This document shows, piece by piece, positions 660 through 63,486 of a DNA stretch of 64,000 nucleotides (position 1 is the stretch's first letter; each line of letters begins with the position of its first letter). Where the stretch lies: the NCBI GenBank assembly GCA_024734495.1, contig JALMQS010000187.1, forward strand, positions 13,039,952 to 13,103,951, written 5' to 3'. Made by a program: the position numbers and the translations under genes. The notes under the pieces are model-generated. The model saw nothing but the letters and a program-made list of their open reading frames with translations, was not told the DNA's origin and ran no database searches. This DNA comes from Forficula auricularia. Its lineage: Eukaryota > Arthropoda > Insecta > Dermaptera > Forficulidae.

Positions 660-880
660 GAGTAGCAGAATTTTTATATATTGAAGGGGACAATAAAAGA
701 ATGTAGTCTTCTGCTGGAATTATAAATTTTATTTATAAAGAGACTATAGTTTCGAGGGCTTTTCCTCTTCATCAGTCTATTACAATTGATTCACAGGAAT
801 TAATGTATGAATGGATGAAAGCTCTCGAAACTATAGTCCCGTTATAAATAAAATTTATAATTCCAGCAGAAGACTAAACC
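660..880. repeat. Foldback repeat with hammerhead-like motif (ACTATAGT type)
   Basis: Inverted arms AATTATAAATTTTATTTATA (716-737) and its reverse complement near 844-865 flank a loop. The left arm, read on the minus strand (742-777), has CTGATGA, A, GAGG-loop-CCTC, then GAAACTATAGTC. The first bases on either side pair as AGA/TCT. A relative with the same GAATTAATGTATG loop lies at 37,500-37,770. Confidence 0.7.
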
Positions 881-1360
881 ACTAAATTTTTGAGCTCATT
901 AGCATTTAGTCATATCTCTTCTTTTAAATATGAAGAGTTTTCTAGGACAAATAGCTTTCAAGTATTTTTGTTTGGAAAATCAGTGGATACAAAATTGACG
1001 AAACGTCTGACCCATTTAAAAAAAAACTATATGTTTTTAATTTTATCCAATTCCCTACTATTCCTGTTATAAATTTACTAAGGATATGAATGATGTAACA
1101 TTATCTTGAAAATAATTATATCTATAAAAAATCGAGTCAAAATTGTGATTATTTTTTCGGAAATCTTGATATATTTCACATTCAAAATCTAAAATCTGCC
1201 CTTTTATTTTTCGAAAATTTTTGGGGAGATTGTCCAATTTCTTCTTATTTAAAAAAAAAAAAAAAGGTAAAATTGTATCAGATATGTTTTTCCAGTACGA
1301 ATATATAAAAATCTTAATGTTTAAAAAAATTTATAATTTTATGTCGGGCTGCATTCAGTG

Positions 1361-1391
1361 TAGTGCTGGGCCGCGGGTTGGACAGCCCTGC
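1361..1391. mobile_element. Solitary hAT-like terminal end
   Basis: GGCCGCGGGTTGGACAGCCC followed by TG reads as a hAT right terminus (reverse complement CAGGGCTGTCCAACCCGCGG). No partner end was found, so this is a truncated copy. Confidence 0.4.
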
Positions 1392-1834
1392 TCTAAACAA
1401 AGCTTTTTTTTATTAAATGTGCCCATAATTATGAAAATGGACTAAGTCAAAAAATTAAAAAATTAGTTTTTTCATATTTTATGTTCCATCCATTTTAAAA
1501 AGTACAATAATAAGTATAAAATAATAATATTTGTGACAAAAACAACCCTTCAATTTAACAAAAAATTTAAATCAAGTCACTTAAGTTCTGGAAGAATTTT
1601 AATATACAATAATAAGATGTTGGTTTTGAAAAATCGCATAAATTTGAACCGTTAAATGGATTTTTAGTTGTCTCATTATAGAGAATTCGATACTTGTTTA
1701 TTTTAAAAAACTTTAAATATCTTAAAACTAACATTCAATGACTTGGAGCAATTTCATAATTATGAGCAGATGAGCACAAATGTTTTATGAAAAATAGAAT
1801 AATAATGTCAAAATGAAAGTTGAATGAATCTTAC

Positions 1835-1987
1835 CACGGTTGTTAACAATCAGGCTCTTACGTTTATCTTCTGCTGCCTGCTGGGCCGCCTGGGCTGTTT
1901 TAGTAAGGATAGGGGTTACTCCTCGAAGAGAAGCTGCCGTAATGCCACCTTGGTATGTATGATGTTGCCCAGGTCGGATTGGTTTAG
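1835..1987 (-). CDS. Khc: Khc exon 15, IAK tail
   Basis: Residues 944-994. [15 protein letters not shown] completes [10 protein letters not shown], the autoinhibitory tail motif that binds the motor heads. The Ala/Gln-rich stretch [15 protein letters not shown] is species-specific. It ends NNRG at donor GTAAG. Reading past this donor meets a stop after 18 codons, so intron retention would also end the protein. Confidence 0.93.
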
Positions 1988-4900
1988 CTGAAAAAGTATC
2001 CAAATTAATACACGTTGTAGATACATGCCATAAATGTTGAATTATAACATTTTGTAAATAAATAAGTCAACAAAGGCTTTGGACATAGTGTTGTAAACCC
2101 CAGGACAATTTAGTGGACTTATTTAAAACTTTCTAATATGTATGGGGGGCATTTCACGCCTAATCGGACGGTTTGAAAAATTTTAATTTTTGATTTCCTT
2201 CATTTTTTGACTTTTTTTATTAGTATCCATCAAAAAACTCTTCATAGTAAATTTTGAAATTTTTTTGATCACCGGTTTAAAAGATATCGAATTTCGGTTT
2301 TTCGCTCATAACTTCTTCAAAAATGGTCAAAATTCAATTTACATACTTTTTAGAAAAAAATACAAAAAATTATTGTTTATATATGTGTTTTTTTAGTTTC
2401 TTAAAAATAATATCGTTCAAATGTAAATCCTCGCGTTCACAGCACTCATTTAATCGAACAATAAAGTTTCTTATGGCGTCTCGGCAGGTAGACTCCGTGA
2501 TGGCTGCCATTTTGTGACTGATATTTTCTTTCAAATGTGCCAAGGAAGTCGATTTATTGGCGTAAACCTTGAATTTGAGATAACCCCACAGGAAAAAGTC
2601 CATAGGGATTAAATCAGAACTGCATGGAGGCCAATTTATGTCACCTCTCTCCTGGAGATCAAATTGCCAAGGAAAATTTCACGAACTCGGCGTGTGTGAG
2701 GTATATGAGGGGGCGACATAGGCCTTCTGACATGTCATAAAAATTATCTAAGACAACTCGGATTTAGTAGATGACATTTTGTGATTTCTTCAGAAATTTA
2801 AAATCTGCTTGATCGGCAATTTGAGCTTTTATATTCAATAAAAATTGTGGTTGAAAATTTTCTCAGGATATAACTTGGGGGAGGGGATAATAATAATAAT
2901 AATTATTATTTGGATTCATCATCATCATCATCAGCCTGTCGATATCGACAATCCACTGCTGAATATAGGCCTCTTCCATCAAATGGAAGGGGGTTGACAT
3001 TAAGTCACCACCCTTGCCAGACGGATTGGTGACTAGGAATCAGATTATAGGCGGTCAAATATCAATGCAGGGACTCGGACTCGAACCCGGGACTCATGCT
3101 TAGAAGGCTAGTGTCTTAAGCTCTCGGCTAATCCGATTTTCAGAGTTTTTCAAAATCTCTTAAACCAGAAAAGATATCTATATTGTTTTAGCTTAGAAAG
3201 GTAGAGAAGTATTAATAATATATATATATAAAAAAAAAAATCCTTGCGGCAGGCCTTAGGAAGTTTTTGAAGAATAATCCAAATAATATATTTATTATTA
3301 TTATTATTATATTTATTATTATTATTATTATATTATTTGGATTATTCTTCAAAAACTTCCTAAGGCCTGCCGCAAGATTTTTTTTTTTATATATATATTA
3401 TTAATACTTCTCACCTTTCTAAGCTAAAACAATATAGATATCTTTTCTGGTTTAAGAAATCTTGAAAAACTCTGAAAACACATTTTGGGGGCCCTTCGCC
3501 CCTTTAGGGTTCGAATTTCAAAAAAAACCCTCCATCTTAGCGATTATCCTTGTCATTATAGGAATGTACTGTCAAAATTTCAGTCCTTTAGGTCCAGCGG
3601 TTTGGTCTGTGTGGTGTCTGTTACACCTTGTCACGGAACTGTTTTATATATTATATAACGGGTGAGTTTTTTCTCTTGAGGCAGTCTTATAACTCAAAAG
3701 CAGTGCATTCAATGGAGAAAAGTTTCAAATAAAAGTTTATTTATATTAGGGGGGGGGAACTAAACTACGCTATTGTTTGCCAACCTGGAACAAGCTTTCA
3801 AGGGTATTTCGAGGTCAAGTTCTGTTTTTTAAATGGAAACCTATAGGTTTCTGTACATATTCTGAATCTTCAAAAAAAAACTGAACAACTTTTATTAGAA
3901 CTATTTTTTTATACGACATCAAATAATAAAAAATATTAAATCAATTAGATCTCAAAAGAAAATCCTAATAATTATTTTTTTTATTTTATTTATTTATTTT
4001 TCACAAAGTATACAAACCATAGGATCTTAGGTCCCACCTAGTGATTATACATAATTTAGCATAATATTTTTACAATGTTGGCAAAAGATTTCACAGATAC
4101 ACAAATTTTGGAGGGAAGAAGAAAAAAGTAGAGAAAGATTAGAAGACATAAAGGAAATAAGAGTAAGGAGTATCAGTTATTAGATCCATAAAGAACGAAG
4201 ACCTGAGAGCACCAAGAGTCGGGTTTGCATGAAATTTGGATGGAAGTTCATTCCAAAGCCTTTCAACAATCATTCAACTTAATTATGAAATAATAATAAT
4301 CAAATATTTAATTATTAAATAAATAATTTAATAATAATTTTGCGACACTGTTCTGAGACATTCCAGTTCTAATTGCCTTATTTTGGCCTGATCCTGTTTC
4401 TTCGTAGTCTTTACAATTCTTGTTTTTTTTTGTTTTTTTTTTTACAACACGATGAAATGAAGCTTTGGAGGGTGTATTCATATCATGAAAACGCTCTGCA
4501 TCGATTTCAATGGCAGCCCCATTTTTTTCAAGTTCACCGGATAAATTAAGACCATTTCAATTCTGTCTTCAACAAAAAATGCTCCATTTTTATTATTGTA
4601 ATACAATATAGGTAACTATCTATTGGATTAACATGAGAAATAAACTTTTTTACACTCAAGAATTTTAAATAGATCTATTAAGTAGAAAATAATCTCTTAA
4701 ATCTGTGTATAATGAAGTTTTAAGATCATTATAAACACTTTATTTTCATTGTTGTGACTTTTCGATTTAATAATTATTTATTTAATAATTAAGTTGAATA
4801 ATTATTTAAAAATATAATTATTAGAGATTTATTTTTCTTGAGATCTAAATGATTTAATATTTTTTTTATTTGATGTCGTATAAAAAATAGTTCTAATAAA

Positions 4901-7900
4901 AGTTGTTCAGTTTTTTTTTTTTGTAGATTCAGAATATGTACAGAAACATAGGTTTCCATTTAAAAAACAGAACTTGACCTCGAAATACCATTAAAAGCTT
5001 TTTCTAGATCGACAAACAATTGCGTAGTTTAGTTTCCCCTCGATATAAACCAACTTTTATTTGAAACTTTTTTTCATATAATGCACTGTTTTTGAGTTAT
5101 AAGACTGTCTCAAGATAAAAAACTCACCCGATATAGATTATATTATTACAATTTGGGACTTCCTCTACCCATGTCTATATTTACAGCAATGTCTTTTTAT
5201 TATTTCAATCATTTTAAAATTTTTAATTATGGGAAAATTTTGATAAAACCCCACGTCTTAAAAAAAATAAGAGATTTATTTATCAATATAATATGTTTGT
5301 TATAGTCTTTTAATATGTAAAACCCCAAGTGGTTAATGGTATAAAGGGAAAAATTATAAATACCGATTTGTGCGCTAGCTCCTCGTCGAGCCATATTCTT
5401 CTGCCGTACTGCTTCTTTAATTCGATCCACTTCGTATTGATATCGTTTCCTGTCCTTCATTGCACCTTCTTTAGCATCTTTAAGAGCTGATTCTAAAGCT
5501 TTCACTCGTTCCATAGTTGCACGTAATCGTTTCTCTAATTTAGGCAATTCACATCGCAAATCAGCATTATCTCGTACCAATTGCTTATGCACTTTGGTCA
5601 ATTGATCTAAATTGTTCTCTAAAAATGAGATCTTTTGCTTTTGGGCAAGAGAGCCACCATCATCTTCAGACTCTTCAGCGTTGGCTGACTGTAAGAAAAA
5701 AATAAATAAAATTAAAATAAATATTAAAAAATTAATCGTGTTTTAAGAACAGACTCTTTATCATGCACCTACAACTTGTATATAATTTTATTTATTTCTA
5801 TTACACAACAAATAATTTGAGTTCATTTTAAACATATCGTCGCCTTAATGTAAACCTTCTAAATCTATTTTTATCATATGACATATTAATACTATCGTAT
5901 GTTTCCTACATTTGATTCAATCGCAAATCAAATGCAGGTGATTTTTGTTAAATATTAAGTGAAAATAATATCCGAACTTATATATTTCTAACTTGAAATA
6001 ATGAAGTTAATAAATTTATAATTTTCCCATTAATATATCAAAGAAAAATTAACATATTAACGAGAAATTGTTTTGATCACGCTTTTAACAAGATATATAT
6101 CGCGAGACTACTGCTGGTTGAAGCTATTGGAGTCTGCTGAGTCTTAAGTCTGGACCAAGAGAGAATGAAAAAGATATGATCCATTTAGCTACAATCCAAC
6201 GGCATTATTGCGTATAGCCCGCATTGAATCAAATGTAGGAAACATACGATTAATTAATGGCAGGAACCTAATATACGTGCCAATAGATCGGACGCTCTGG
6301 GCTAGGAAGATTGAATATATAACTGAAAAGTTTTTGTTTTGCCGAGAGTAGCAGAGTTGTTGATTCACAAAGAGAAACAAAGAGGTTGTCCTTCGATGTA
6401 AATAAACATATACACATATATATCAAGATGATATATCTGTATATATATTATTTATTTGTTTGAGACTATAGTTTCGAAGACTTGGTCTTCATCATCAGTC
6501 TTTCTTCAATTATAAATGTTTTTCATGGAGTCAATATCATATGGATATTTAAAACTTGGTGTTCTTTCGTCACTGGAAGGCTACATTTATAATTGAAGAA
6601 AGACTGATGATGAAGACCAAGTCTTCGAAACTATAGTCTCAAACAAATAAATAATATATATACAGATATATCATCTTGATATATATGTGTATATGTTTAT
6701 TTGCATCAAGCAGAGGACAACCTCTTTGTTTCTCTTTGTGAATATATAACATCACAGATTTCAAATTCATTTGGTGATCCATCCAAAGTGTCATGTGGGC
6801 TATAAGCAATAATGACGTTGGATTGTAGCTAAATGGATCATATCTTTTTCATTCTCTCTTGGTCCAAACTTAAGACTCAGCAGACTCCAATAGCTTCAAC
6901 CAGCAGCAGTCTCGCGATATATATCTTGTCAAAAGCGCGATCAAAACAATTTCTCGTTAATATGTTAATTCTTCTTTGATATATTAATGGGAAAATTATA
7001 AATATATTAATACCATTCGAAAGAAAAAGAGATGCAGCATCGTACAAGTAAAACTGCTAATTAAAATTACGATCGTAAGTTGTAGAAAAAAAATTTGAAA
7101 AATAGTTTCTTTCCATAACAAAAATATTTGTTTGTTTTTTCTCTGCCCTGTAAAATTTCTTTGTTGTGAGTTAGCAGGTTTACACCATAGAGTAATATAG
7201 AGTGGAAGGCTACCGTATATAGAAAAGGCGCTCTCTAGGGACTCCACTTAGCAAACTCCTAGTTCTTAAGAGCTATCCAAAGATCATGGAACTTTAAAAG
7301 CCTTTGTCATAGATAAAAGATACATACCCTTTATGTTATATATATATAAGCGTATTTTTTACTTTTGATAATGTCACCAAACTTTAGCCCGAAGAGAGCA
7401 GTTTCCGCCATTTTATTACCCAATGGTTTTGCCCTTGTCTCGCCAGAGAGCACTGTAACTCGTATAAATACATTGGCTCCTTTTGGAGCCTTCTACTCTA
7501 TATTACTCTATGGTTTACACTCTAAGACGTCCTTATACAACACTCGGGAACAGCTAAATCGACTCAGCCTATAAGCGCGCATACAAAGTCGTTTTTCTTT
7601 AAAATGGCTAAGCCGATATTTATAATATATATATATATATATCTTAAAGCTTATTTATTTAACTTTACATTGATATCAATATCAAGCAAATCGGTTCATT
7701 ATTTTTTAAATTATGTGATCTGAATGACCGGAAAAGAAACTCTCCCTGTAGCACTAGATATCTCAAAAGCTTTTGACCAAGTTTGGCACAAAAATCTTCT
7801 TGCCAAACTGACAGCCTTTGAATTAACACCAACACTTCACAAATGGATAAGAAAGCTTTCTGACAAACCGTAGAATCAAAGTTCTGGTGGATGGAATGTC

Positions 7901-10900: not shown

Positions 10901-13900
10901 TTGAGATGCTCGCGAACAAATTGAAGTCGAGCTTGTTGAGGGTGACGTGTTGGTAATTTCAGTCCAGTGGCAGGTCTTCTGCAAGTGAGGTTGGCTTCCT
11001 TCAAGCCTCTTCGGACTCACAGCCACACCTCGAACTTCTCTCAGTTGCTGCTGGACACCGACGCCAGGGAGGTGGTGGTTTTGGAGAGATGTCGTGACGA
11101 TGAACGGTCATTAGATGAGACGTGCACCGGCGGCAGAGGGTATTCGGACTCCGAGGGAAGGTACCAGTCTCCTGAAACCTTCTGATAAAGCAGACTCATT
11201 TGACGAGCCATTTCTCTTCGTTTATGTCTCTTGCCATCACAGCAACAACAACAATTTGAGCGAGAAATTCTAGCATTCTATCATACATTTCCTGAAAGCA
11301 ATAGTGTCAAATTATGAAGATGTGTTAAGGTCAACGGGTGAAAAGCAATTAATAAGAAAAAATGGTTACATAGTATTTTATAAGGCAATTGCAACTAAGA
11401 AGTAGCGGCAGCTAAGAACAGCATTTTTTCCAGTTCAGCCATTCAGATCACATAATTTAAAAAGTAATGAACCGATTTGCATGATATTGATATCAATGTA
11501 AAGCTAAAAAAATAAGCTTTAAAAATATATACATTTTATATAGGTATATCGGATTAGCCATTAAAAAAACGACTTTGTATGCGCACTTAGGGGGTGAGTC
11601 GATTTAGCTGTCCCCGAGTGTAGAAAAAAATTTATTTTTTTGCTTATTTTTTTAGATATATCTCAAAAACTGAAAATTATTTTAATAAAAAAATAAATCA
11701 AGCAAAATCATCTTGTTAAGTCCTACAAAAGCCTTCTAGTATAGACATTATAAAAATGATATTTTAAGATATATTCATTATTAAAGAAATATATTAATTA
11801 TTTAGATCATCTGAAACATACGACCTCTCACCAAGATCTAGAGGTCGTATGTTTCAGATGATCGAATCATAGGAGAGATGAGATGGATCAGGCTGTGGAC
11901 CTGAATTACAGGCCGTGGATGACGAGGAGGGATTTCAGATGTAGCTTCTGCAACATAAATGAAAAGGAGGACGTTTTCCACTTCATTGTAAGATGCCCGA
12001 TCCCCGCGATCATACGCCATGGATGCCGGGATCAGGGGACCCTAACGTAAGGCGAATTCAAGGACTTGTTAAATGGAACAAACTGTAACTCTCTTGCAAA
12101 ATATGCAAGGGAGGCATGGAGCTACATATGGACCCTGATTTCAGAATTTAAATATTATTGACAACAAGACCAATAAAGACTAACGATCAAAAAGACTATA
12201 GTCTATATGCTTTATATAAATAAAAATGTATATATGTAAATGGAAAATTGATTATAATAAAAAAGCACTTATTATTTTTATTAATTATTTAGAAAAAATG
12301 TAAAACTCCAAGTATGTGTGTTCAAATTTCAACTAAAATCTAATCAGCTCTAGATTCTCAAAAAAAAAAAAAAAAAAAAAATTAAATTTGAAATTTCGTT
12401 TTTATATTCTTAGTGAAAGAGCGTAAGCTACTCAATCACGAACATTCACATTTTGACAAAATAATGAATATCTCTTAAAATATAAATTTTGTCCATGTTA
12501 ACTATACGTATAAACATTTTTTGTATGTCTAAGAGCCCTGGCTTCTCTTTAAAATTTTTTTATTGAAGTAGTTGATTTTGAAATATTACAGAATCAATAA
12601 TTTTTTCCTACTAAATAAAACAATTAAATAAGAAATTTCGTTTTTAAATTCTTATTGTAAGAGCGTATTCAATATTTGAAAGATTTTCATTCAAAAATAT
12701 TTACATTTTGACAAAATAATTAAGTAATATCTCTGAAAATTTAATTTTTTTAAATGTTAATTATACTATTTTTATTATTCAGTTCCATAATAAGTATTAA
12801 ATATAACAAATTCAGGGAGAAAAGGAATAATGATACTCAGTGTTATATTGTACGATCAATAATGACTTGAGAGTGTACGGTCAGTTTGTGAAGTTATATC
12901 GCTATTCTAAATAAATATTGGTGTTATATGGGCGAAATGTATTCAAATTATTAAATGTATATAACTAAATGGCAAAGCAAAATCAAGTGACAAAGTGTTT
13001 AGAAGAAATTTGATCAAGAGCCTGAAGAAGCTGGAATAAATCAGCGAAACATCGCTATTGATTGTACACAAGGGCGGATCCAGGAATTTTTTTATGGGGG
13101 GGGGGGAGAGAATGTATATAAGGTGCTCGATGTATATAAGATCTACTTTTTATCTCGAAAGTGTGTCGCGATCGAATTGTCCAAGCGGGGGGGGGGGGGG
13201 GGGGGGGCAGAGACGCCCCCACACACACACACACATAGAACTTTATTTTCAATTTTTTTAAAAAATAAATGTTTTTTTTTTAATTTTTTTACAAATTTCA
13301 TATCTCATATTTTAAGTTCATTAAAATAAAAAAAAAATAAAAAAACCGTCACGTGCTAAAATTCAACCTAATTGAATACTACAATTTGTGAACATAATTG
13401 AGTCCAAGGGTTCCGTAGTCTTTACCTGAGGACCCTTTGAAGTCGCGCTTGTCGCTAGACCGATTACAATACTTTCCCCATGCTTCGCATTGGATAAAGT
13501 AAAAAATTGTTATAAATTCCCTGTCGATTTGGCCGCCGTTTTTTGGCCTCTGCGTGCCGCGGACGTGTTGCACTCCCGCCAGGCGGTCGCCCCCCCCCCC
13601 CCCTGGATCCGCCCTTGATTGTACAATATAAATTTGAGTTTCATTGTTCCTTTTTCTCCCGAATTTGTTATAGTTACCTATACCTATAAGCATTTTGTGT
13701 AGGTCTAAGTCCCTTGACTTGGCTTAAATGTTTTATATTAAAGTAGTTAAAGCCATTTTTGAGATATTACGGAATCAATAATTTTTTCTCTTATAATAAC
13801 GCGTTATTTGCATTTGTGGTTGAAAAGGTCTATTGAAAAGAAACAGCTAAACACTATATGGGTCTTGTTAAGAATTTTTGTTTATAGTTTCCCAAAAATT

Positions 13901-16900: not shown

Positions 16901-19900
16901 ATATGTTATTTCTGTTTTATATTAATGAAATTGTTAATATAAAAAGAAAAGAAAGAAAAATTGTGTTTTTTGTGAATGTGCCAAATATTTTTTGAAAATT
17001 GTATTCTGATGGCCTTCAATGGTAACGAAGGTAATAAGAAAATTTAGACGAATGTGTGACATGACTATTTGAAGCCCTGAAGAAGTCGGCAAAGTCAACG
17101 AAACGTTGGTGGATAAATAAAAAAGTCACACATAAAAACTTGTCCTTATTTTCCCAATTTAAACTTTCAAATAAACCTTTAAGTTTTCTGTTGAGCCGTG
17201 TAAATGAATGGAAGATTTGAAAAATAGATTAATATTTTGAAACAGAAATGATCTTGACACAAACAAGTGGGGAATACTCAAGGTATTCCAGAAAGAAAAA
17301 GAATAGAAAAACGTACTCTTTAAGTTCGTTGATACTTGATTGTTTTTCTGAAATCTCATCTCGTAAAGTTGCCACTTGTTTATGATGGACATCTCTCAAT
17401 TGATCCATTTGCTCTTCAAGTGCTACACGCATCTTATTGGCCTGTTCTTTTTCTTCAGCCTTTTCTTTGGACGAAACGGCATGTACTTGTTCTAAAATAA
17501 TTCAAATAAATCAATAATATTCATTTAATTCAAATAAAAAATAAATAAATATTGTAATAAAAAAAAATACCAGCTGCTTTTAATTTAGCACATTCTTCTC
17601 TAAGAGCATCGACATCCTCTTCCAAGGTTCGTTTTTTGTTCTCCGCTTCACGCATCGATTCTTGCAAGCTTTTCATACGTGCCTCGTGTTGGGAAATAAG
17701 CAATCGACAATCAGCCAAATCCTTCTCATGCTCAGACATCTATAAGATAAAAAAGTTAATTTAATTTTAATGTTAAGATTAATATTAAATACGATATCAA
17801 AAAGGGTGCTGGAAAGTTGTTTTCTTATTTAATTCATTATCGAATATTTTGGTTTTGAAATATGGAGGTCTTGGGAAACAATTTTATGGTTCTTTGTAAA
17901 AAAATGTAGTATTTTTGAAGAATATCTAAGTATTGTTTGCTCACCTTCTTGTTGCTGTCTGTTTGGTAAGTCTCAAGGCCATTGCATCGCTGAACTAAAT
18001 TCTTGACTTCACTCTTCATTTTAGAAATATAAAGTCTGGCTACCGTAAATTCCTCTTCAAGCTTACCACTGGTATCGGTGTTAATCTATAAATTTCAATT
18101 ATATATCGTTATAATACAATACTATTGAATGAATTATATATATAAAAAAAAAGAGAATTCTTTTAAAATAATCAGAATTAGTTTAATTTAACTTTAAACG
18201 TTTCGGGAAAGTCGTGGCGTTTCTCATTATTTTATTTTTTTTACTAGCTTTTATTAAACTATTTGTTGAATCTTCAAATATTCAAAATCATTTATGGACT
18301 ATATTTTTTTATATCAAACCGATTTTTTTTTTTTTTTGAAAATTTGTTGATATTATATTTATGTCCGATGACATTGAAATATTTTATCAAATTTTGTTTT
18401 TGTAATTTAAATTTTTGACCCACTTCCAATTTTCTTGAAATTTTGCACACAAATGTACTTGTGGTGAGGTTGCAATATTATATGTATTTTTTTTTTTTTA
18501 TAATAAAAAAAAGTTGATTTTATAAGAGAAAATTCAAAACGCTGTCCCCACTTGATACAAATATATATAAAATAGACATACATACATCTATATAATATTA
18601 TCTATTCGAGACTTTAGTTTGTAAAGCTTAGCCTTCATCTTCATCTTTTTTTATAAACATGTTTTGTTTTTTGTTTTTAAGTCTCATTTGAATGTACATC
18701 TGAGATAAATCACTAAAGTAGAAGTAACTCATTTGTTAGATGAATTGTTTACCTCAGATTGAAACTCAAAAGAAAAAATAAAGAAAATATTTATTTAAAA
18801 TAAAAAAAAAAAAAAAAACTCAAGTAACTATAATCTCAAACAAATAAAAATTATATAGATGTATTTTTTAAATGAAATCTTAGGGAATTGGACAAAAATC
18901 AAATTAAAAATAGAGATTTATCATTTAATGTGCCGAATGTTTCGGCCAACTCCCTACGATTTCATTTCAAAAAATTTAATTATGGATACGACTAGTGAAA
19001 CAGTATATAACTTAGATGTATATGTTGTAGGTAGGTATATGTATGTATTTATTTATATATAGGTGTATGTTTGTTTACATGAAGCAGCATAATGGCAAGA
19101 AAAACTTTAACTTTAGAAAAATTTGGAGTTGTAAAAATCCTTCAAAATGATTAAATTTTATCATCAAAATATAAATCATATTTACTAAGCATTTTTTTCA
19201 TTGGTAAAGGAAATATTGTTTCCGTAACGTTTGAAGTTAAATTAATTCTGATAGTTATAAATATAATACGAACCTTCATATCTCCATCTCCACCAATAGC
19301 CACGCCAATTTCACCCAAATCTTTCAATAAGTTCGTTAACATTTCGGTTATTCGTTTGCGTTGGTGGCTTGATAAGTCTTTAAGTTGCTGAAGTTCACTG
19401 ATTGTAGAATTAAGTGACGACTAAAAATAAATATTATATTATAAAAAAAAAATAACATAATACATTGATCTTAATTTGATTAATATTTCTAATTCTTACT
19501 TGTTTTTGCATCAATTCTTCTGTCAGTGATTCGTATTCTTTATTCTTTGTTTCTACCTCTTGACTCTTTTGATCATAATTAACAGCCAATTCTTCGAGAG
19601 CTTGCAATACTTCTTTGACTTCCTCTTTTGCAGATTCGTTTTCCTGTTGAATACGATTCATCTCTTGTTGCAGCAGCTCATAATCACGACGTGTTGAAGC
19701 AATGAGCTAAACAAAATAATATAGAGAATTAAAAATAATGAAAATAAAATAAATGAATTAAGATAATTATATCATATTCTTTAATTCGTTAAAAATTTGA
19801 CATCGATTTAAAACTATTTCCTGGTAAGCTATAGAGCTCAAATTTTAGAGACACTCTTGGTAGATGACAGTGCAATGTGGTGTAATAATATTAAACAAAC

Positions 19901-22900
19901 CAACCAAAATGGTGGTTAAAGGGGTGAAAAAATTAAAATTCTTTATCCGATTTGGACCAAATTTTACAAAGTTATTCTTTAGAGACCTGAGAAACAGTGG
20001 CGTTTGTTCCAGGGATGTGGTGCATCCCTAAAATTTAAAACGTCAAGAGTTTTATCAAAACCTTCCACGAGCGCTTCGGTTAAACGCAGGTGGCCACTCA
20101 ATCAAGATTTTCAAATTTCCGGTTATTTCCCGGTCAAAAAACAAGGATTTTCCCGGTCAGCAGTAGCCAGACCCGTATCTATTAATTCCCAAGATATTTT
20201 TATCAAACCTGATACAAGAGAATTTAAAGTCCACAAAATTTGGTAACGCACAGAATAACAGACTAACTAACACACTAACAGACATTTTGACAAAAAGGTT
20301 ATTATCTCGAAAAATATAATTTTTTCGATGTTCACTTATTAAGAGCTTTTTTGTAGACCGAAATGACATGGTTTCGCCCAATTTTTTTAATCAAAATTGT
20401 TTCAGCCGTTTTTGAGATATTTCGAAAAAAAGAAGCAAAAAAAACACTTTTTTCATGCACGATTACAATACTTGACCATACCCTGTATGGTAAAGTAAAA
20501 AGTAATATTGAAACCTATAAAATTAAGGTGCGTTTTAGAATCGATGGCGTTTTAAAATCGAAGTAATACGATTTTTTATTTTTTTAGTTTTATAAAAAAA
20601 TCAAAGTAACAAATAGAAGTTGACTTTTATTTCAACTTTTTATTTTCCCCTTACTGGCCCCTTAGCCAATTCAATTTAAATAAAAAAATCTGTATAACAA
20701 TGATTTAATAATGTAAACCAATACCTCTTCTTGTTCAAGCATTTGCTCCTTAAGTTTTTCAACATATTGCGAATGCTGATTGATCTCTTCGTCTTTTTCG
20801 TCCAATTGCTGGTAGAGACCTTCCCTTTCTGCTTCCAGTTTCTGTCTCTCATCATTGCTCAAGGATCCAGTCATGAGCATTCCAGCACTGGGAGTGGCTG
20901 GAACTGGACCAATTTCCTTGATGGGCACTTCCAACGGGCTTGCACTGACAGGGGTGGTCGCATCCAGAGGTTCAGTCAGGTTCACTTGCTCATCAACAGT
21001 AACTGTTTCACCGCTTCGCCAACGACTCAATTCCAATTCCAATTTCTCGCACTTGCCCTTGAAACGCGCAACCTTCTCCTTTTCTTTCTCGAAACGACGT
21101 TTCCACTCTTCGGCTGTAAGTTCTTCATTGACACAGACAACATTCTTAATTGTCTTAGCACTGAAAATTATAGAAAAATATAGAATTATTATTAATCTTT
21201 ATAATTTGCAATATATAATTATTAGTCTTATTGGTTTATGAAAAAATGTTCAACAGTGTTGATTTGGAAATAATTAGAAACAAGTATTTAGGGCCGGTTG
21301 TATGTCGCAAAGTAAATGCTTTTACCACTAACCAAGTGGTAGATGGTAAATGGAGTGGCTGGGATGGCCAATCAGATGACAGGAACTTTCAGTGCCTGTT
21401 ATCTCATTGGCCATCCCAGTCCCTCCATTTACCATCTACCCTTGGTTAGTGGTCAAAAGCATTTACTTTGCGACATACAACCGGGCCTTAGTGTTCAAAG
21501 CTTAAAAAGCAGAAACAAATTTGTGTGATCTAGTTCAGTGCCGGATTAAGGGGTAAGCGAAGCAAACAATCGCTTGAGGCGCCGAAGAAAAAAGGCGCCG
21601 GCAAAGTCTTTATCGTTTTTTTTTAACTTGGGCCCCTTCAAAGTAAAAATTGAGACACCCTTCTATAATAAACATAAATTATTGGATAAAAATACTTGGT
21701 AGGTTTCACATTAAGATATAAAAAAATAAAACGAATTTATTTTTAGAGAATCTTTAATCTCGATATATATATTTCGGGTGACTAACCCATCTTCAGGAGA
21801 TACAGGAAGTAACTGACGGGACGGACGGACGTTACTTCCTGTATCTCCTGAAGATGGGTTAGTCACCTGAAATATATATATCGAGATTAAAGATTCTCTA
21901 AAAATAAATTCGTTTTATTTTTTATATCTTAATGTGAAACCTATCAAGTATTTTTATCCAATAATTTTAAAAAATGTTTCACCAAGTACCAACACCAAAT
22001 TCCTTAAAAACTAATAAACATAAATAATGAAAAATAAGATTGATTGGAAAAGAAGAAAATTAAATTAATCTATGATGTCGAATTTTTCATATTTTTACTT
22101 TCAGAGCTCATTGCTGAATTGTGGGGGTGGAGGCGAGGGCGCAATGAACGGATTTGACGCCCTCTCAGTAAAGATAAAAGCGCCTATCGAAATTTTTATA
22201 ACATGCATAAAATCATTTCATGTTTTCATTAGGTAAATCATTGGAGGATTATAATTTTTCGGTGAAATCTAAAACAACTCTTAAATTTACCAAAATTATA
22301 ACAGCTAACAAATTTACTATAAATTTCTTTTTCAAAACAATACAACATTTCATATTGATTTCTATGAAGAAAATAAACATACAAAATTTGAATGTACCAT
22401 ATATTGTATATTATGATTGTTGCTAAATGCGTTGGGGGGGGGGGGGGGGGCAAAATATTTCATGTTTGTAGTAAAATTTTCTCTTAGTCCGGACCTGATC
22501 TAGGTGCAATCTGTCTGATGTCGGACGGTATTGTTTTTCTTCTTTTTAAAAAAATCAATCAATCTATCTAGACTTAGAATTCAAAGAAACAACTTTAAAT
22601 TTGCAATTTAAAATCAAAGAACGAATGGGATGAAATTTGTGTTTATTTTGGCCTCCCAGAAAGATATTTGACTCCAGAAAACAAACCATATTACTAAAAA
22701 AGCTTGTAAAAATTAATAAAATTAAAACCGCTCATATTTTTGAAAATTTTCATATTTGAAACTCCCTAATAATCCAAATAAAAAAAATAAATAAAAGTCT
22801 TGGATGAATAATAATATCTTAACAATATAGCTAAACATTTATTAGTAGACACGTCCGTTGTTTTGTCTATGATTATTGAGAAAAATGTCATGTTGACAAA

Positions 22901-25900
22901 AGATACAATTTTTTTCGTAACATATGACCCTATTTTTTCATTTATTATATTTTTGTAGTTTTTGTTCTACTAGCTTTAATACCAACGGCAACGCCCGAAT
23001 CTACACAGACTGACTTTATTAAAAGATAAATCGTGTTCAGATACAAAATCTGCTAATTTTAATTCAGATATTTTGACTTGCAAATTATTTTTTAAATTAA
23101 TTTTTTTACTAATTTTAATACTTTGAATAAGAATAAGAGAACATTATTTAGAATTAACTTTGTGTAGTGTCATCTATCCGTACTTAAATTTATATTTTGA
23201 AGCTTATATTTTTTTAGGATTGTAATGTACAAGCTTTAAAATATTTTATGGAATGTACTAGAAGCTAAATTATTTTAATGTTAATGTACGATTGTTCTTT
23301 TCAAGCAAAAATGTAAATACATTTGTACTGTAACCGCAGCACTGATTGATAAGTATCTACTAGGGTCTAGGCACAGGCTCACTATCTACTCATTAATCTC
23401 TTGACTAAGCTCTCGCAGTATGACCTTAGTCTAACAAATCGATGATTTCATTAACTATATTTCATAATAGATCCCGATTCGAGTCCGAAAGTGAAAAATA
23501 ATAGCGAATTTTAAATAATTAACTGATCGGGTGGCCTAAAACTTAAATAAACTTTCATGTTCAAGTTTAATATAAATATCCTCCTGAACAAAGTTAGAAT
23601 AAAAAATAATTTTATTTTAATTTGATTGATTTTGTATAATTTATTATCTAACGGTAAAATTCATGGTTGGTTGATTTTCATTTGTAGAGATTAATGCCGT
23701 ATTCATCAGACTTGAACAAATGAGAGAAAAGCCGCATGTAAATAATTTTTCCAGATTGGATTGTCGATTAAAATTTTACATATATTATAATAAATTGTAA
23801 TTAATGAGAATTTTGAATATGATTTAAAAATTTATTAGTAATAAATATAAGTATTAGGAATCATAAAATGGATAAAAAAATCGTGAGTCTGAAACTAGAC
23901 TTGAAATAATAAGAATACATTTTAAAAGAATAATAATACAAATTAACCAATATTCGAGTGTTAATTAATGTTGTTTAAAGTATATCAAGTAAGAAAGTTC
24001 TATTTTACCGTTTGCCAAACTCGAGAGTAGATTTCGTTTCTGCTTCGTTAAAGCTGGCAGGAGAGCAGCAAATAATAATAGTTGTTCGTGCATTGCCACC
24101 AAGGGATTCTTGCAAGATTCTTGTAAGTTTCGAATCACGATAGGGGATATGCGTTTTGTTTCCATCAGCCAGAGCAGAGATCACATTCCCGAGAGCCGAG
24201 AGGGATTTATTGATATTTTTAGCTTCATCAAGCACAGTTCCTTCGGCACCAGTTTTGCTTACCTAGAATAATAAAAAAAAAACAGTCAATTTGCTCATTT
24301 ATTTATTTAAAAATATTCAAATTTTTTTATACAGGAATAGAAAAAAATCCATTGCGAATTGATAAAAACATTTAATTTTACACTTAATGCTTTAATTGCT
24401 CTGATGGAACGGGTTTTTTTTTTGGGTTTTACCAGACATTGTTTAGATAAAAAAAAATTAAAATTGAACTATATATTAAAACACCTCCCAAATAATCACG
24501 TCATCCAAAGTTCAAAAATTATATTTTCATTTCCTTTGGGGCGCATTCACAACGAGGACTCGTCTAAAAGAACACAACTTTTCTGATATTAAATAAAAAT
24601 GATCCCAAATAGACCACAAGATTATCCTAAATCTACTAGGAAGTCAAGAAAATTTTGAGCATTTGTTCGGATTTCTACATCGAATCCAACTTTTTAATTT
24701 AATTTAACTTATATTTTATTTTTGTAGAACCTAACTATGGGCAGACTAACTATTTGTGATATTTGTTTTGTTGATTATTCTATTTATTATATATTTATTA
24801 GGCCTTCTACAGCTTCATTATTGTTATTTTTATCTTATATAGTTTGTCTCTTGTTGAATATACATTTATTTAAAGCTTTTTTTAGCAGTCGGGTTCAATT
24901 CTGATGACACAGAGAACCACCTAAGATGTGAAGTGTTTAGACTCGCAATTTCGGATTTGTTTCGATTCCTGAACAACCCGCCGAGGAATCTTTTTCAAGA
25001 AAGCACTTATAAAGTCACTGATAAGAAGAGAAGAGGAGGAATCCCAGTCACTCTAAAAATGGCTTATTCAGCACTTGAAAACACAAGAGTTGTTGAGATT
25101 ATTCGCTTCTAATCAGTCCCTTTAAGAATGACTTCTCTAGTAGCTAAAAACAACTCTATTGAAACGGTGAGCATGATCCAATAATAATTTTTAATCTAGG
25201 TGGTTTTAGATTAAACTTTTCTACTGATAATTATATAGTCATCCTCAACATTAGTTTTTAACAAAAATGTTTTATTAAATGTCGAAAGATTGGAAAATTT
25301 GAATATATATATGTAAAACTGGCTTCTTTTAAGGATTATAAATGATTGCTATAAAAATATAGATTTTTATTAAAATAAAATATTTACAATATCGGAAGTT
25401 TATCAATTAAATACTTTACCTATAAAAATATAGAATAGAAATTGAATGTAATGGAAGGCAGCCCAGAGGTAGTGAGGAAAGAAAAAATTAACACATGTAA
25501 AATAAGGTGTAATTTATTGGAATCCTTCCTCCTTTCCTTTCAAACCGACGTTTCGGAGGATTTTTCCCTCCTTCTTCAGGGTTTCAAAGGGTCAATGAAT
25601 GAAACCCTGAAGGAGGGAAAAATCCTCCGAAACGTCGGTTTGAAAGGGAGGAAATTCCAATAAATTACACCTTATTTGATATGTGTTAATATTTTCTTTC
25701 CTCACTACCTCTGGGCTGCCTTCCATTACATTCAATTAAAATTTCTACCAGTCCGTCTCTCTCCAGAGAAAATTTCGTTGCAAAAAAATATAGAATAGAA
25801 TTTATAAATTATTCTAATGGTTTTTATCGTAACACAGATAAAATTAACAAAATAGGATATTCTATTAAAATAGAAATGAGAAAAAATGTATTAAGTAATT

Positions 25901-45055: not shown

Positions 45056-45094
45056 CTGAAGAAGGAATAATGTACAAAATTTCCGAAATATTTG
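45056..45094 (+). ncRNA. Hammerhead-like motif, single copy
   Basis: CTGAAGA, A, GGAA-loop-TTCC, GAAATATT, with stem I GTCCA/TGGAT around it (five pairs including G-T). No inverted partner. Confidence 0.55.
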
Positions 45095-45591: not shown

Positions 45592-46142
45592 AATTTAGGG
45601 AACGCGGTGTTGGTTTATAGTGAAATATTACTAAAATTAAATTAGGTTGGAGTTGGTGGTGTTTCACAAGGAGAAAAATTAAAATACAAAAGATTTTTTT
45701 AGTTTACTCTATATATTTCGAGCTCTTAACTCATCGTCAGGAGAACATTGACTAAAGATAACATGATATTTTGAACAGAATTTATTTTTAATTTAATATG
45801 ATGGACAGTTATTTATGACATAGTGTAAATATGAAAGAATTATCAGAAGGATGGAATGGCTTTAGAAAGCCGAATGACCAGATGTAGGGACAAAGGGCTG
45901 GGACAAAAGAAAAGATATTTCCAAGTATAAATGATAATTCTTTCATATTTACACTATGTCATAAATAACTGTCCATCATATTAAAATAAAAATAAATTCT
46001 GTTCAAAATATCATGTTATCTTTAGTCAATGTTCTCCTGACGATGAGTTAAGAGCTCGAAATACAGAGAGTAAACTAAAAAAATCTTTGTATTTTAATTT
46101 TTTCTCACTTGTGAAACACCACCAACTCCAACCTAATTTAAT
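45592..46142. repeat. Hammerhead foldback, 190-bp arms
   Basis: Arms TTGGTGGTGTTTCACAAG... and the inverse ending CACCACCAACTCC. Minus 45,712-45,740 and plus 46,037-46,064: CTGACGA, T, GAG-loop-CTC, GAAATATATA, stem I CTC/GAG. Confidence 0.75.
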
Positions 46143-46264
46143 TTTAATATTATTTAGGTAGAACCAAAGCCCAGATGCCCACTGTCAAAAAACAACATCT
46201 TTAATCTAGGCACGATCTAGAAGCGAAAATTAGATTATGTTAAAGTCTTTGCTGGTTCGATTTA

Positions 46265-50064: not shown

Positions 50065-50449
50065 TAAGGCAGATAATAGAATGACAGGAAAAATTTGGAT
50101 CAGTTTGCTTAATTTTACAGCAGTGGAAATTCAATTTTACTTCAATTTTACTCTTAGATGGCCCATTACTGGAGCGTTTACCTTAAATCCAAATTTTGGT
50201 ACTTATTAACAAAACATTTATTTTCTTGTAGTAATTTTTCATAAAACATATTATAAATTAGTCCAGTTGGATTGTTGAAGTTATTTACAATTGATTGACA
50301 ACAATGATTGATCTGCTGATCAAGTGCATGATAAAGAATATCGGTATTTGATTGATTTTGTTCATTGATAAGGAAAGTTTTAAAAAAACTACTGGGGTTT
50401 GATGAGAATCTTTTTTAGTAGCAATGTTTACTATAATAAGTATTTAAAT

Positions 50450-53649: not shown

Positions 53650-54068
53650 GTTATAATCACTGAGGTGATTTTACGGTATTTTTTGACATCTTCAGTGGTC
53701 GATTACCCCAAAAAATGACTCGATTTGGCGAGTAAGAATTTGACTCTCGTGGTGTGTGCTGATCACACTACAGTATGGGATAAGTTATTTGGATTCTAAA
53801 ATCATCTTCTAAAATGGTCAGTAGCTCTCGGTCTATATCATATAACGATAGTTTCTTATATTTATCTAAATAATTCTTTATTTAATTTCCATTTCTTAAT
53901 CAAATATTTAGTCCTAATCCATTCTTATTTATCCTCTTGAGTAAAGTATTTGTGTTTGTCTCATCATTTTAAATGTATTAAAAAATCTCACTTATTTTTC
54001 TTCTTCTGTATTAGAGCGGCAAAGTTTCTGTGAAAAGTACTAGATTTATATATATTTTTTTTAATATA

Positions 54069-55247: not shown

Positions 55248-55301
55248 TATAGGTATATGTTTTTTCTAATTATACTATTTATTTTTATTCCTCAGATTAA
55301 A

Positions 55302-57754: not shown

Positions 57755-57935
57755 TTTTACTTATGGAAAGTGGTGTAGGTTTTAGGTGAAACATGATGTT
57801 ATTAGAGTAGGTGTACACAGTGAATTTAAAATAAAATTTAAAGAGGTTTATACAAACTCAATATATTTCTGATGATCCTGATGATGGACTAATAATCCGA
57901 AATATATTGAGTTTGTATAAACCTCTTTGAGACAA
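57755..57935. repeat. Hammerhead foldback in transporter intron
   Basis: AAAGTGGTGTAGGTTTTAGG at 57,769 as at 39,775 and 40,010; then TTATACAAACTCAATATATT inverted at 57,903-57,925. Plus 57,878-57,906: CTGATGA, T, GGA-loop-TCC, GAAATATATT. Confidence 0.65.
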
Positions 57936-58031
57936 TTTACCAAGAAACTATTAGAATTTTCACTTATTAACGAATTTTTTATCTACTATTAACTAATTTG
58001 TTCTATCCACTACCACCTACTTTAATACATA

Positions 58032-59221
58032 CAGGGTGTCCCGTATCAAAACGATGAACCGTGAACAAATGGGATAGGGCAATTTAAGACGGTCCTGAAT
58101 ATAAAAATTGTTTTTAATAAAAAGTCTTATAGTTTTGCCAAAAAGATATCAAAATTTTTTTTTCTAAAGAAGTAATTACAAAGTGCTGTACCATTTTGAA
58201 ATCTGACTAAATGGGCCAATTTTTGAATAACTTGCCATGCTTTCGGCTACTAGACTTTTACATTAAAGATGATTCAAAGTTCATCATCATCATTGAGTAT
58301 ACAGTCCTAAGACTGGTTTGATGCAACAATCCGTCTCCACTGACTCTGTCCCCCCGCCAGCTGTTTAACCTCTCTAAATGTCTGGCATCCCATATCCCCA
58401 ATTATTTGGTTGAAATATTCTAATCTGGTTCTTCCCCTTCCCCTTTTCTTTCCCACCTCCCCTCCAAGATATCCCTAAGCAGTCCCCCATGTCTCAGTGT
58501 GTGCCCCATCATCTGACCTCTTCTCTTCTTCAGACTCTTCCACAAGGTTCTTCTTTCTCCGATTCTTCCAAGAACTTCTTCATTTGTAATTTTATCCATC
58601 CATTTGATATTCATCATTCTTCTGTAGCACCACATTTCGAAAGCCTCTAATCTCTTTCTCTCCTCTTCTCTAATTGTCCAGGTTTCACACCTGTACATGG
58701 CTATGCTCCATACATATGTCTTCAATAGCAACTTCCTGTTTGCTAAGCTGATTGAGGAGGAGCATAGTAGTTTTTGTTTTGTATTAAACCCCATTTTTGC
58801 TTGGGCAATTCTTGATTTAATTTCTGTTTTTGCTCCTCCCATCCCATGTTATTTTACTTCCTAGGTAGCGGAATTCCTTAACAAAGTTCCCTTCAAAGTT
58901 AGCTGATGAAAATTTTTTAAAACATAAGTTCGGCAAAAGTATTTTTTTCTCCAAAAGTATAGTACTTATGGTTTTATTTTGAATTCTGGTCAATAGAAGG
59001 ATTATTTAGGATTGCATAAAAAAAATTAGAATAACAAAATATGTAAATTTGTAGCCACAGAATCCCGATATTTTGGGCAGGGTAGCGATTTTCACCATTT
59101 TCAAAAAATGCCTATAAGTAGAAAACTATAAGACTTTTATATAAAAATCTCATGTTCAGGACTGTCGTAAACGTGCCCTATCCCCTGTTCACAGTTTGTC
59201 GTTGTGATACGGGACACCCTG
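58032..59221. mobile_element. Palindromic MITE, CAGGGTGTCCCG ends, copy 2
   Basis: Ends and TA duplication as at 54,069-55,247 (TA 58,030-58,031; 59,222-59,223). The left half has lost most of its own arm and jumps to right-arm sequence near 58,130. A LINE fragment is inserted. Confidence 0.85.
58282..58891 (-). pseudogene. LINE 3' fragment with 9-bp target duplication
   Basis: Minus strand: KTEIKSRIAQAKMGFNTKQK, LLLKTYVWSIAMYRCETWTI, RRMMNIKWMDKITNEEVLGR, then LRDILEGRWERKGEG and a (ATG)n tail at the left end. Duplication TTCAAAGTT at 58,273-58,281 and 58,892-58,900; single in the other palindrome copy. 5'-truncated. RTE-like or related endonuclease-RT C-terminus. Confidence 0.9.
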
Positions 59222-59307
59222 TATTTTTGATGATTTGATAAGAGTTTTAAAAATAAATTACTACCAACTTCTTTAACAACAACGCAATTGCTATTATTTG
59301 ATTTTAG

Positions 59308-61499: not shown

Positions 61500-61945
61500 A
61501 AAATATTTACTAGAGAATTGATGAAGAGGCAGTCCATTGATAATGAAAAGTACGATTTCAAAATAAAAATAAATTTTTATAACGTCATTTTTATTCACTT
61601 AAAAACCGACATTTCGGATAATCGATCTTCTGTCATTCAGGGTTTATAAGTGCCAACAAAAGAAGCTTGTAATCACGTCTTCCTTGTTTCCTTTAACAGT
61701 GTTATGTGTTATATTTTCCCTGTTACCGTCATCAGAATTTATGATGAAAAAATTCCAAGCTTCCTTCGTTGACTCCTTTAAACCCTGAAAAAGAGGAAAG
61801 ATCCTCTGAAATGTCGATTTCTAAGAATGAAAATGACCTTTCATTAAATGATTTTATTCGGAATTTCTTTTGTTTTTTCATATCCCTGGGCTGCCTTTCC
61901 ATCAATTCACCATTGAACACCAGTCCGTCTCTAAAATTCTAGATT
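61500..61945. repeat. Foldback of the AGTCCGTCT family, diverged
   Basis: Minus 61,610-61,645 and plus 61,785-61,816: CTGAAAA, A, GAGG-loop-CCTC, TGAAATGTCG. The core is mutated. Ends CACCAGTCCGTCTCTA, as HF2 at 25,750. Confidence 0.65.
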
Positions 61946-62820: not shown

Positions 62821-63083
62821 AACAGGGGTCGGGGAACCGGGGTAAATTACCCCAAACGGGGTAAAAATGAAACTATCGGTAAAAAGGAAATTTTTAAAAA
62901 AATTTTATTTTATAAACTATTAGTAGTATTGTTAGTTTGATAGCTTTTCCAGGAATTCAAAATCTTAAAATTAATAAAAAGTTAAAAAAAATATAAAAAC
63001 ATTAATAAAAGTTATGCATTTTTTGTCATGATGAGTGTTGGTGTATTTTTTTCTTTTTAAAAAGCAGTCAGTTAAACCCGGCA

Positions 63084-63194
63084 AGAAATCGGCTGAATGC
63101 CGAGGATTGTATTCAAATTGCGCTCATGTCAAAAAGTCCTAATTTTGAAGTTATTTTAGCGAAAATGAAACAACATCATTTTTCTAAAACGTAA
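63084..63194 (+). pseudogene. hAT transposase C-terminal fragment
   Basis: RNRLNAEDCIQIALMSKSPN then FEVILAKMKQHHFSKT and stop. Matches the C-terminal end of Buster/ZBED-type hAT transposases (NRL..EDCL..ALS...PDI..L...Q). No upstream frame. Confidence 0.7.
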
Positions 63195-63283
63195 AAGCGT
63201 TTGAATTATGTTAATGTTTACAATTTTTATTTACTTACAGAGAGTTTTCATGTAAATTCCAATTAATTCAATAAATAATAAAT

Positions 63284-63318
63284 AAGTGCCTGGAGCACCG
63301 AGCGATGCTCGGTAACTT
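63284..63318 (+). repeat. CACCGAGCGATGCTCGGTAAC hairpin repeat, third copy
   Basis: GTGCCTGGAGCACCGAGCGA followed by TGCTCGGTAACTTTTT. See 28,668 and 42,475. Confidence 0.5.
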
Positions 63319-63452
63319 TTTGCTTCTAAATAGCTTAAGTTTCAAATTTCAAGGCTCTGCGACTTTCCGAAGACGAGATATGAACGATTAAAATATTTAT
63401 TTTCCGACATGACTAATTTACACCCCTTCCCTTATTTTGACCCTTTTAAATC

Positions 63453-63486
63453 ATGAAGAAGGAGGTATGATCCTTCGAATTGTCGG
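63453..63486 (+). ncRNA. Degenerate hammerhead-like motif
   Basis: ATGAAGA, A, GGAGG-loop, TCCTTC, GAATTGTCGG. Several core bases changed. Related to HF2 by its GTCGG end. Confidence 0.4.

Follow-up and report, generated by a model that had tools for sequence, protein, structure and literature searches.

Hammerhead-type motifs at Penelope-like retrotransposon ends and paired cDNA starts in head-to-head insertions of Forficula auricularia

Results

We analysed a stretch of 64,000 nucleotides of the Forficula auricularia genome (contig JALMQS010000187.1, positions 13,039,952 to 13,103,951), hereafter the window. It holds a series of foldback elements whose arms carry motifs resembling hammerhead ribozymes (HHRs), several of them flanked by target-site duplications (TSDs) (Table 1).

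Table 1. Elements and hammerhead-like motifs of the window (window positions; strand in brackets)
Feature	Position	HHR motifs	Tail and TSD	Remarks
Family A, copy A1	6324..6738	6498..6464 (-), 6604..6638 (+)	Tail 6324-6367; TSD TGAATATATAAC, 6312-6323 / 6739-6750	A-type Penelope-like element; two cDNAs, head to head
Family A, copy A2	26462..26918	26645..26611 (-), in long left arm	TSD 26450-26461 / 26919-26930, one mismatch; second-ranked candidate, chosen for agreement with alignment ends	Right arm starts about 4-5 nt 3' of predicted HHR cut
Family A, copy A3	38601..38971	38831..38865 (+)	TSD TTTAATCAAATT	Empty site 38040-38085
Family D (ATAT stem III)	21680..22011	21796..21762 (-), 21848..21882 (+)	Right tail; TSD TAATAAACATAAAT	
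Family E (ACGT stem III)	25441..25783	25579..25547 (-), damaged 25597-25649 (+)	Right tail; 17-bp TSD	
Family B	35790..36279	35884..35854 (-), 36150..36180 (+)	Right tail; TSD ATCAATTATAAG	Nested in element C
Family C foldback	35654..36527	35759 (-), degenerate near 36419 (+)		Host of B
Family G	36790..37178	36874 (-), degenerate 37095 (+)		E-related by eye
Family K, nested copy	40131..40455	40297..40265 (-), 40331..40363 (+)	Left tail; TSD TATATTTTGGATTA	Inserted in left ribozyme motif of older K copy
Older K foldback	40033..40622	40510 (+)		Left HHR motif split by nested copy
Foldback J/I2	39212..40980	HHR-like 39558 (-), 39311 (-), 40627 (+), 40822 (+)		Two motifs per arm
Foldback I1	38140..39233	HHR-like 38202 (-), core TTGANAA; 39119 (+)		Host of A3
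Family L	45623..46155	45740 (-), 46037 (+)	TSD sought, none found	
Family M	57840..57928	57878 (+)		
Family F1	704..876	775 (-)	TSD sought, none found	Near-identical HHR type adjoins other GIY-YIG loci of the genome
Second F1 copy	37534..37722	Degenerate 37548-37601 (-)		
Family N	61515..61908	HHR-like 61595 (-; E 0.55), 61775 (+)		E-related by eye, decayed
Family B, single-arm copy		17077..17107 (+)		
HHR-like motif		13022..13049 (+)		Poor stem III; related to motif at GIY-YIG loci L049, L050, L063, L069, L074
Single HHR		45056..45092 (+)		Long loop II; no foldback partner seen

The pattern CTGANGA-N6-30-GAAA matches the window 35 times (32 distinct core starts), against 3.89 expected, and 100 shuffled windows contained at most 10 matches each. 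The sequence-only reading had claimed more than 25 occurrences, which these counts bear out, and the equal density in shuffles that would have refuted it did not occur; its coordinates, where we compared them, were correct to within a few bases, and plus 25,607 is a damaged arm. A strict type I hammerhead descriptor (stem I of at least 2 bp, stem II of at least 3, stem III of at least 2, H17 not G) retrieved 17 copies. All 17 carry exactly one extra A/T between A9 and G10.1, so that stem II does not directly follow A9. The same descriptor with 0, 2 or 3 extra bases at this place had no match in the window, and the canonical hammerhead, with stem II directly after A9, was rejected on that count. 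The strict count never exceeded 2 in Markov sequences of two orders, 60 of each. A covariance model built from 19 copies gave 36 window matches at E<=0.1, the training copies included; according to a tally by eye, 29 of them lie in foldback arms, all pointing outward, and seven lie outside clear foldbacks.

In the alignment of these 19 copies, which were chosen by their core, CUGANGA ... GAA, A15.1-U16.1 and H17 are invariant while N7 varies. Stems I and II covary in the window copies. Stem II pairs at 89.7% as against 60.5% in shuffled alignments, none of 500 shuffles being as high; two of five covariation measures did not rise above the shuffles (both-side changes, 307/500; pair types, 131/500). 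Stem I pairs at 33 of 42 positions, a count that includes the family I representative at 0, its start coordinate being wrong, whereas 20,000 shuffles had a mean of 18.8 and a maximum of 30. We rely on this test; a second one gave 36/39 with hand-picked short strings and cut sites of our own choice. Rfam reported no hammerhead, either in a search of the window or in a permissive search over 35,000-47,000, and its best sub-threshold matches were miRNA families located on foldbacks. When ten copies were folded, z was -2 or lower in three and positive in three, and the minimum free energy structures contained stem II in seven of the ten and stem III in none. A pattern search for E/J-like motifs in viral and prokaryote contigs gave 46 loci. 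Both stems reached at least 3 bp in only three of them (L007, L011 and L036), which look like one homologous gene, and in none of the other 43, which can therefore stand as a chance control. On sequence evidence, what recurs here is a genuine fold of the hammerhead-ribozyme type, located at the termini of Penelope-like retrotransposons (PLEs). The earlier proposal of a type I fold whose stem III is minimal, as has been described for PLEs, is supported; its conserved core stands as regards CUGANGA, stem II and GAAA, but with one extra A/T that core is not canonical.

The 1.06-Gb genome contains PLEs with a reverse transcriptase (RT) and GIY-YIG frame, open for 858 codons from stop to stop, whose first ATG is codon 32 (A-type element: RVT_1, 1.6e-16; GIY-YIG, 8e-6). 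The pLTR of this A-type PLE is window family A, as seen at L051 and other loci; at L051 the units form direct tandems with an HHR spacing of 2,909 bp. On this unit the three window copies map as cDNA pairs: A1 as 5680-5425/5636-5481, A2 as 5685-5334/5638-5541 and A3 as 5684-5554/5636-5432. In 37 of 40 loci, our own pick out of 150 GIY-YIG matches, an HHR lies within 1 kb 3' of GIY-YIG on the same strand, and F1-type ribozymes sit 3' of GIY-YIG matches at other genomic loci. Family D adjoins diverged Penelope ORF fragments that share 30-40% identity with the A protein; such fragments lie just 5' of the D arm on the same strand in 5 of 20 D loci, and at L104 they lie within the TSD-bounded D element. 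Another candidate link, L096, was rejected, as the PLE there proved by tblastn to be of A type and to have inserted into a D foldback. No ORF link has emerged so far for B, C, E/G/N, I, J and 45056, and the one E locus inspected (L119) had no PLE ORF in 1.7 kb. The families had been described as unrelated, and as undescribed non-autonomous elements. Neither description is supported for A, whose sequence is a PLE pLTR, or for F1-type and D, which have PLE ORF neighbours, and inverted pLTRs with a one-sided tail already figure in the available part of the 2013 rotifer paper (PMC3846280); both may still apply to B, C, E/G/N, I, J and 45056. That the repeats share little else holds only in part: by eye, families of the same stem III type have similar tails 3' of their arms.

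The insertions consist of two head-to-head cDNAs; a tail (34-51 bp) is present on one side, and the duplicated target is mostly 12 bp long. Inverted pLTRs, one-sided tail and TSD occur together in 7 of the 17 window HHR foldbacks, strongly in six and weakly in A2. A TSD score of at least 12 was reached by 6 of these 17, as against no score of 10 or more in 16 other foldbacks and one in 272 swapped flanks; with freer geometry, 2 of 150 random pairs reached 12. The score of A2 is 8, also reached by 18 of the 272 swapped flanks. Empty sites are present for three of eight insertions examined (A3, B and nested K).

Among the A and D pairs with a strong duplication, 18 of 19 have one arm that starts at site 1 and a partner whose start lies about 45 nt 3' of it (20 of 21 once two weaker duplications are added). 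Thirteen A-family pairs were considered. The seven with a TSD score of at least 10 start at 5635-5639 and 5679-5685, and A2 and L078 fit these starts through a second-ranked, one-mismatch TSD; L076 (11-bp TSD) deviates, with starts at 5611/5575, and L052, L055 and L064 have no TSD. The ends of L052 suggest two tails. In family D, eleven pairs, the window copy included, have a TSD (search range, 14 nt from the ends of the alignment) and start differences of 41-51; L103 and L115 have none, and L101 had been dropped beforehand. The D loci were found with a tail-containing query, so that the tail itself tells nothing and the information lies in its absence from the partner. In both families the inner ends and the lengths of the cDNAs differ from copy to copy. 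As a check on whether HHR-cut RNA is chosen as template, twelve inner ends inside the pLTR were read off, of which none lies exactly at the cut and six lie within about 30 nt.

Discussion

The foldbacks belong to an established type of element, and their insertion rule is sharp and testable. We consider it very probable that the window copies are PLE insertions, mostly very short ones from the pLTR end, and that the foldbacks arise from two-ended priming. In families A and D, the pLTR end carries a type I hammerhead-like fold in which stem III is minimal and A9 is followed by one extra A/T, and cDNAs start at two fixed places about 76-150 nt 3' of the predicted cut. The RT/GIY-YIG protein of the element would cut both target strands about 12 nt apart, and each target 3' end would act as a primer on the element RNA: reverse transcription from one of them would begin at site 1, and from the other at site 2, which lies about 45 nt 3' of it. 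Both cDNAs would extend back across the ribozyme and the pLTR, in some cases into the ORF, end at different points and be joined head to head. The outcome would be a foldback with outward ribozymes, a tail on one side and about 12 bp of duplicated target. With the starts of reverse transcription 3' of the cut, the template would have to be uncut RNA, since arms made on cut RNA could reach about 100-150 nt at most. The ribozyme may serve the mRNA: by cleaving transcripts of tandem arrays it would set the 5' end of the RNA about 196 nt upstream of the first ATG. A point against this reading is that the ribozyme would be buried in the arm duplex of foldback transcripts.

Outer ends at two different RNA positions fit the two-ended priming shown in vitro by the PAc Penelope enzyme, for which both strands were cut and extended and two adjacent RT starts made up the tail (PMC11167929). 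Self-priming, in which one cDNA or antisense RNA snaps back and copies itself, has been put forward for Penelope elements of rotifers because of palindromes where the inverted copies meet, according to the part of that account available (PMC3846280), and the very short loops of some window copies (nested K, 3 nt; G, 16 nt) would agree with it. It predicts, however, the same outer end on both arms, whereas these ends differ by 36-51 nt in all 21 pairs with an accepted TSD, and in A1, A2 and A3 the inner end of one arm is offset from that of the other by 56, 207 and 122 nt. We regard self-priming as unlikely here, L052, without a TSD, being a possible exception to the differing ends. The same ends weigh against DNA-transposon foldbacks or MITEs with a motif gained by chance, a reading we find scarcely credible: inverted repeats and target duplications are present, but the two outer ends are unlike each other, differ by one tail rather than sharing one terminal inverted repeat, and match two positions in one RNA. 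Moreover, A1-A3 map to an RT-encoding element, which contradicts that reading for family A.

It is also quite improbable that the foldbacks form a separate class of ribozyme-bearing, non-autonomous elements that move by their own means or by borrowed ones. Many of them are indeed short, families D and E number at least 40 copies each (98-100% and 92-100% identity, respectively), and the families lacking an ORF link would suit such a class, but A maps to the PLE unit, F1-type and D adjoin PLE ORFs, and variable inner ends and lengths are those expected of truncated cDNAs. A somewhat larger, still small, chance must be given to the motif being a conserved protein- or RT-binding RNA hairpin rather than a working ribozyme, as the weak folds of several copies, the lack of an Rfam match and the absence of an effect of HHR mutants on PAc insertion in vitro (PMC11167929) would allow. 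Against this, the catalytic core stays invariant while N7 varies, stems I and II match, and the PAc HHR cleaves once protein is added (PMC11167929).

Two-ended priming might follow an even stricter rule, which we put forward tentatively and with some doubt. One target end would always prime at site 1 and the other at site 2, as if an asymmetric protein dimer held both sites of one RNA. The upstream hammerhead would then act as a switch, cut RNA becoming mRNA and uncut RNA template; in every PLE lineage the ribozyme-bearing foldbacks would preserve, as fossils, the traces of two-ended priming, and the extra core nucleotide would be an adaptation, common to the whole lineage, to cleavage with the help of protein.

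An RT and GIY-YIG ORF, tandem units and a pLTR with an HHR are shared with GIY-YIG-containing PLEs of the Penelope/Poseidon type, as are head-to-head inverted pLTRs, a one-sided tail and a short TSD (PMC11167929 and, in its available part, PMC3846280). Most window copies differ in being only a few hundred bp long. The TSD is mostly 12 bp here and 8-10 bp in the rotifer elements as far as that part describes them, and the tail compares with 31 bp in one rotifer element (PMC3846280) and 30-40 bp in the PAc account (PMC11167929). Metazoan retrozymes likewise carry type I hammerheads in non-coding repeats, but the accessible part of their description has small direct tandem repeats (PMC7229834) where we find head-to-head cDNA pairs with tail and TSD; the direct tandems at L051 are 2,909 bp long rather than short repeats each with an HHR. 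The minimal HHRs of PLEs and Terminons are, in the available part of their description, of type I with a minimal helix III (PMC7761336), as here. A possible difference is the extra A/T between A9 and G10.1 that every strict copy here has. An extra core nucleotide was reportedly found by De la Pena and Flores in 2001 in the hammerhead of CChMVd, a viroid and not a retroelement, where it is placed after A9.

How PLEs join their cDNA to the genome is an unsettled question: self-priming was inferred in the 2013 rotifer paper, in the part available (PMC3846280), and the 2024 in vitro paper left later integration steps open (PMC11167929). With its many young TSD-flanked insertions, whose arms start at two fixed RNA positions, the Forficula auricularia genome makes this question testable by counting. 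It also offers a set of naturally occurring ribozyme motifs that have one nucleotide more in the core and that Rfam does not report.

A variant hammerhead core

A sequence-only reading had claimed a recurrent hammerhead-like core in the window, and this core is real: CTGANGA-N6-30-GAAA gave 35 matches (32 distinct core starts) against 3.9 expected. When three stems and the cleavage-site rule were also required, we found 17 copies with one extra base between A9 and stem II, and simulated sequences fell far short of this, with a maximum of 2. Under the same strict descriptor the window held no copy that lacked the extra base or had two or three of them at this position. An extra core nucleotide has reportedly been described in a viroid ribozyme, where it is said to follow A9. 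G10.1 is likewise invariant in an alignment of 19 copies selected by their core. In that alignment, 89.7% of stem II cells are paired versus 60.5% after shuffling, and stem II covariation lies above all 500 shuffles by three of five measures and not by the other two. Stem I arms fitted their own partner in 33 of 42 cases (swapped partners: mean 18.8, maximum 30 in 20,000 shuffles). A model built from the alignment copies found 36 matches in the window at E<=0.1, including the 19 training copies themselves. The Rfam search that the sequence-only reading had proposed was run on the window DNA and reported no hammerhead. Folding of ten copies placed stem II in seven minimum free energy folds and stem III in none, with z <= -2 in three. 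We therefore consider the motif a variant hammerhead core with weak helices. Its ribozyme activity is inferred. In family I the core reads TTGANAA in place of CTGANGA: both members of C3-G8 are altered together, to U3-A8. This may be a compensatory change of natural origin within the catalytic core, common to one lineage.

Foldbacks and their insertion sites

Of the 36 model matches, 29 fall within arms of foldbacks, every one of them facing outward (tallied by eye). A target duplication (TSD) of 12-17 bp, together with an extra tail at a single end, was found in 7 of 17 foldbacks carrying the hammerhead-type ribozyme motif (HHR): A1, A2, A3, B, D, E and the nested K copy; in A2 the duplication contains a single mismatch and, taken alone, is weak. 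The tail/TSD geometry score reached at least 12 in 6 of the 17 and in 1 of 272 swapped-flank controls, and none of 16 other foldbacks scored 10 or more; under a freer TSD geometry, a score of 12 was seen in 2 of 150 random pairs. Empty sites were seen for three of eight insertions tested (A3, B, nested K). Families of the same stem III type have tails that look alike by eye. Two other sets of foldbacks in the window showed no hammerhead match at E<=0.1. Because the flanking exons match kinesin-1 heavy chain, the elements between them sit in its introns. Together with the relatives of the Penelope-like protein described below, these exons suggest an arthropod host.

Coordinates of features in the window
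Feature	Position	Remarks
Large, repeated foldback family	3646-5143; 15746-16909; 46587-46808	no hammerhead match
Kinesin-1 heavy chain exons	5,227-5,742; 20,671-21,198	minus strand
RVT_1 of other elements	7851-8642; 47630-48538	
Family I cores	38202; 39311; 40822; 39119	39119 decayed
Older K foldback	40033-40622	
Nested K	40131-40455	in ribozyme motif of older K; 14-bp TSD
Frame beside second RVT_1 frame	48496-50130	spans 100-N gap at 49965-50064
Long foldback	54065-55251 / 58021-59227	92%; related pieces 3 kb away; no hammerhead match

Linkage to Penelope-like elements

GIY-YIG matches are abundant in the 1.06 Gb genome (150 scored of 3,423 candidates). Locus L051 contains units of an A-type Penelope-like element (PLE) that have an 858-codon open frame with RVT_1 and GIY-YIG, its first ATG at codon 32, and the family A ribozyme at 2,909-bp spacing. 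Parnassius, Diabrotica and Bemisia are among the arthropods with relatives of the frame protein, and such relatives are also present in other animals. The model matched at E<=0.1 in 10 of the first 12 GIY-YIG loci. A same-strand match within 1 kb 3' of GIY-YIG was present in 37 of 40 further, hand-picked loci (all except L059, L060 and L084), which are not independent because most belong to family A and its relatives, and where a window-like density alone would yield some matches by chance. F1-type ribozymes, matched by eye to window F1, lie 3' of GIY-YIG in L066, L068, L075, L083 and L094.

Family D comprises at least 40 copies (98-100% identity). At 5 of 20 loci (L104, L108, L111, L113, L117) it is located 3' of ORF fragments that share 30-40% identity with the A protein, and in L104 the fragment falls within the TSD-bounded element; we take D as a putative second PLE lineage. 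Locus L115 (C469) has two oppositely oriented D-type ends, each adjoining an N-terminal part of a PLE ORF, an arrangement unlike the foldbacks. Family E has at least 40 copies at 92-100% identity, with no ORF within 1.7 kb at the single locus examined; for B, C, I, J and motif 45056 an ORF link is absent so far.

Paired cDNA start sites

A1, A2 and A3 each consist of two cDNAs with unequal inner ends. In L051 unit coordinates these start at 5636-5638 and 5680-5685, between the predicted cut after 5536 and the first ATG at 5733. Thirteen A-family pairs were examined. In the seven with a TSD score of at least 10, the start is at 5635-5639 in one arm and at 5679-5685 in its partner. With a weaker TSD that ranks second, A2 and L078 follow the same pattern; L076 stands apart (5611/5575), and L052, L055 and L064 had no TSD. 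Eleven TSD-bearing D pairs, window copy included and L101 left out beforehand, show this pattern with start differences of 41-51, only the partner's missing tail being informative because the query contained the tail; L103 and L115 had no TSD. With free choice of start at each end, roughly half of the pairs should be mixed.

Cervera and De la Pena (2014) are reportedly among the prior reports of HHRs in PLEs, inverted pLTRs and tails, and a separate paper, PMC8490949, is said to concern hammerhead-bearing Schistosoma W-elements. These three features are in print (PMC7761336, PMC3846280 and PMC7229834). In the open-access literature, surveyed mostly by listing, we found no account of the rule of one start of each kind per pair, nor any of hammerhead foldbacks. 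Self-priming, proposed as the origin of foldbacks in PMC3846280, leaves the two unequal ends unexplained. In vitro, the anole PLE enzyme cut each of the two strands and extended them, and reverse transcription began at two adjacent RNA sites matching the 'tail' (PMC11167929). In that element the cut is 26 bp into the ORF and reverse transcription starts at 111-118 bp, a distance of 85-92 nt. Here the distance from the cut to start site 1 is ~100 nt in A and ~76-86 nt in D. We propose a two-ended priming in which the enzyme would likewise cut and extend both target strands, each end priming a cDNA, and the ribozyme might act as a switch between mRNA and template. A single process of this kind explains the foldback with its outward ribozymes as well as the tail and TSD.
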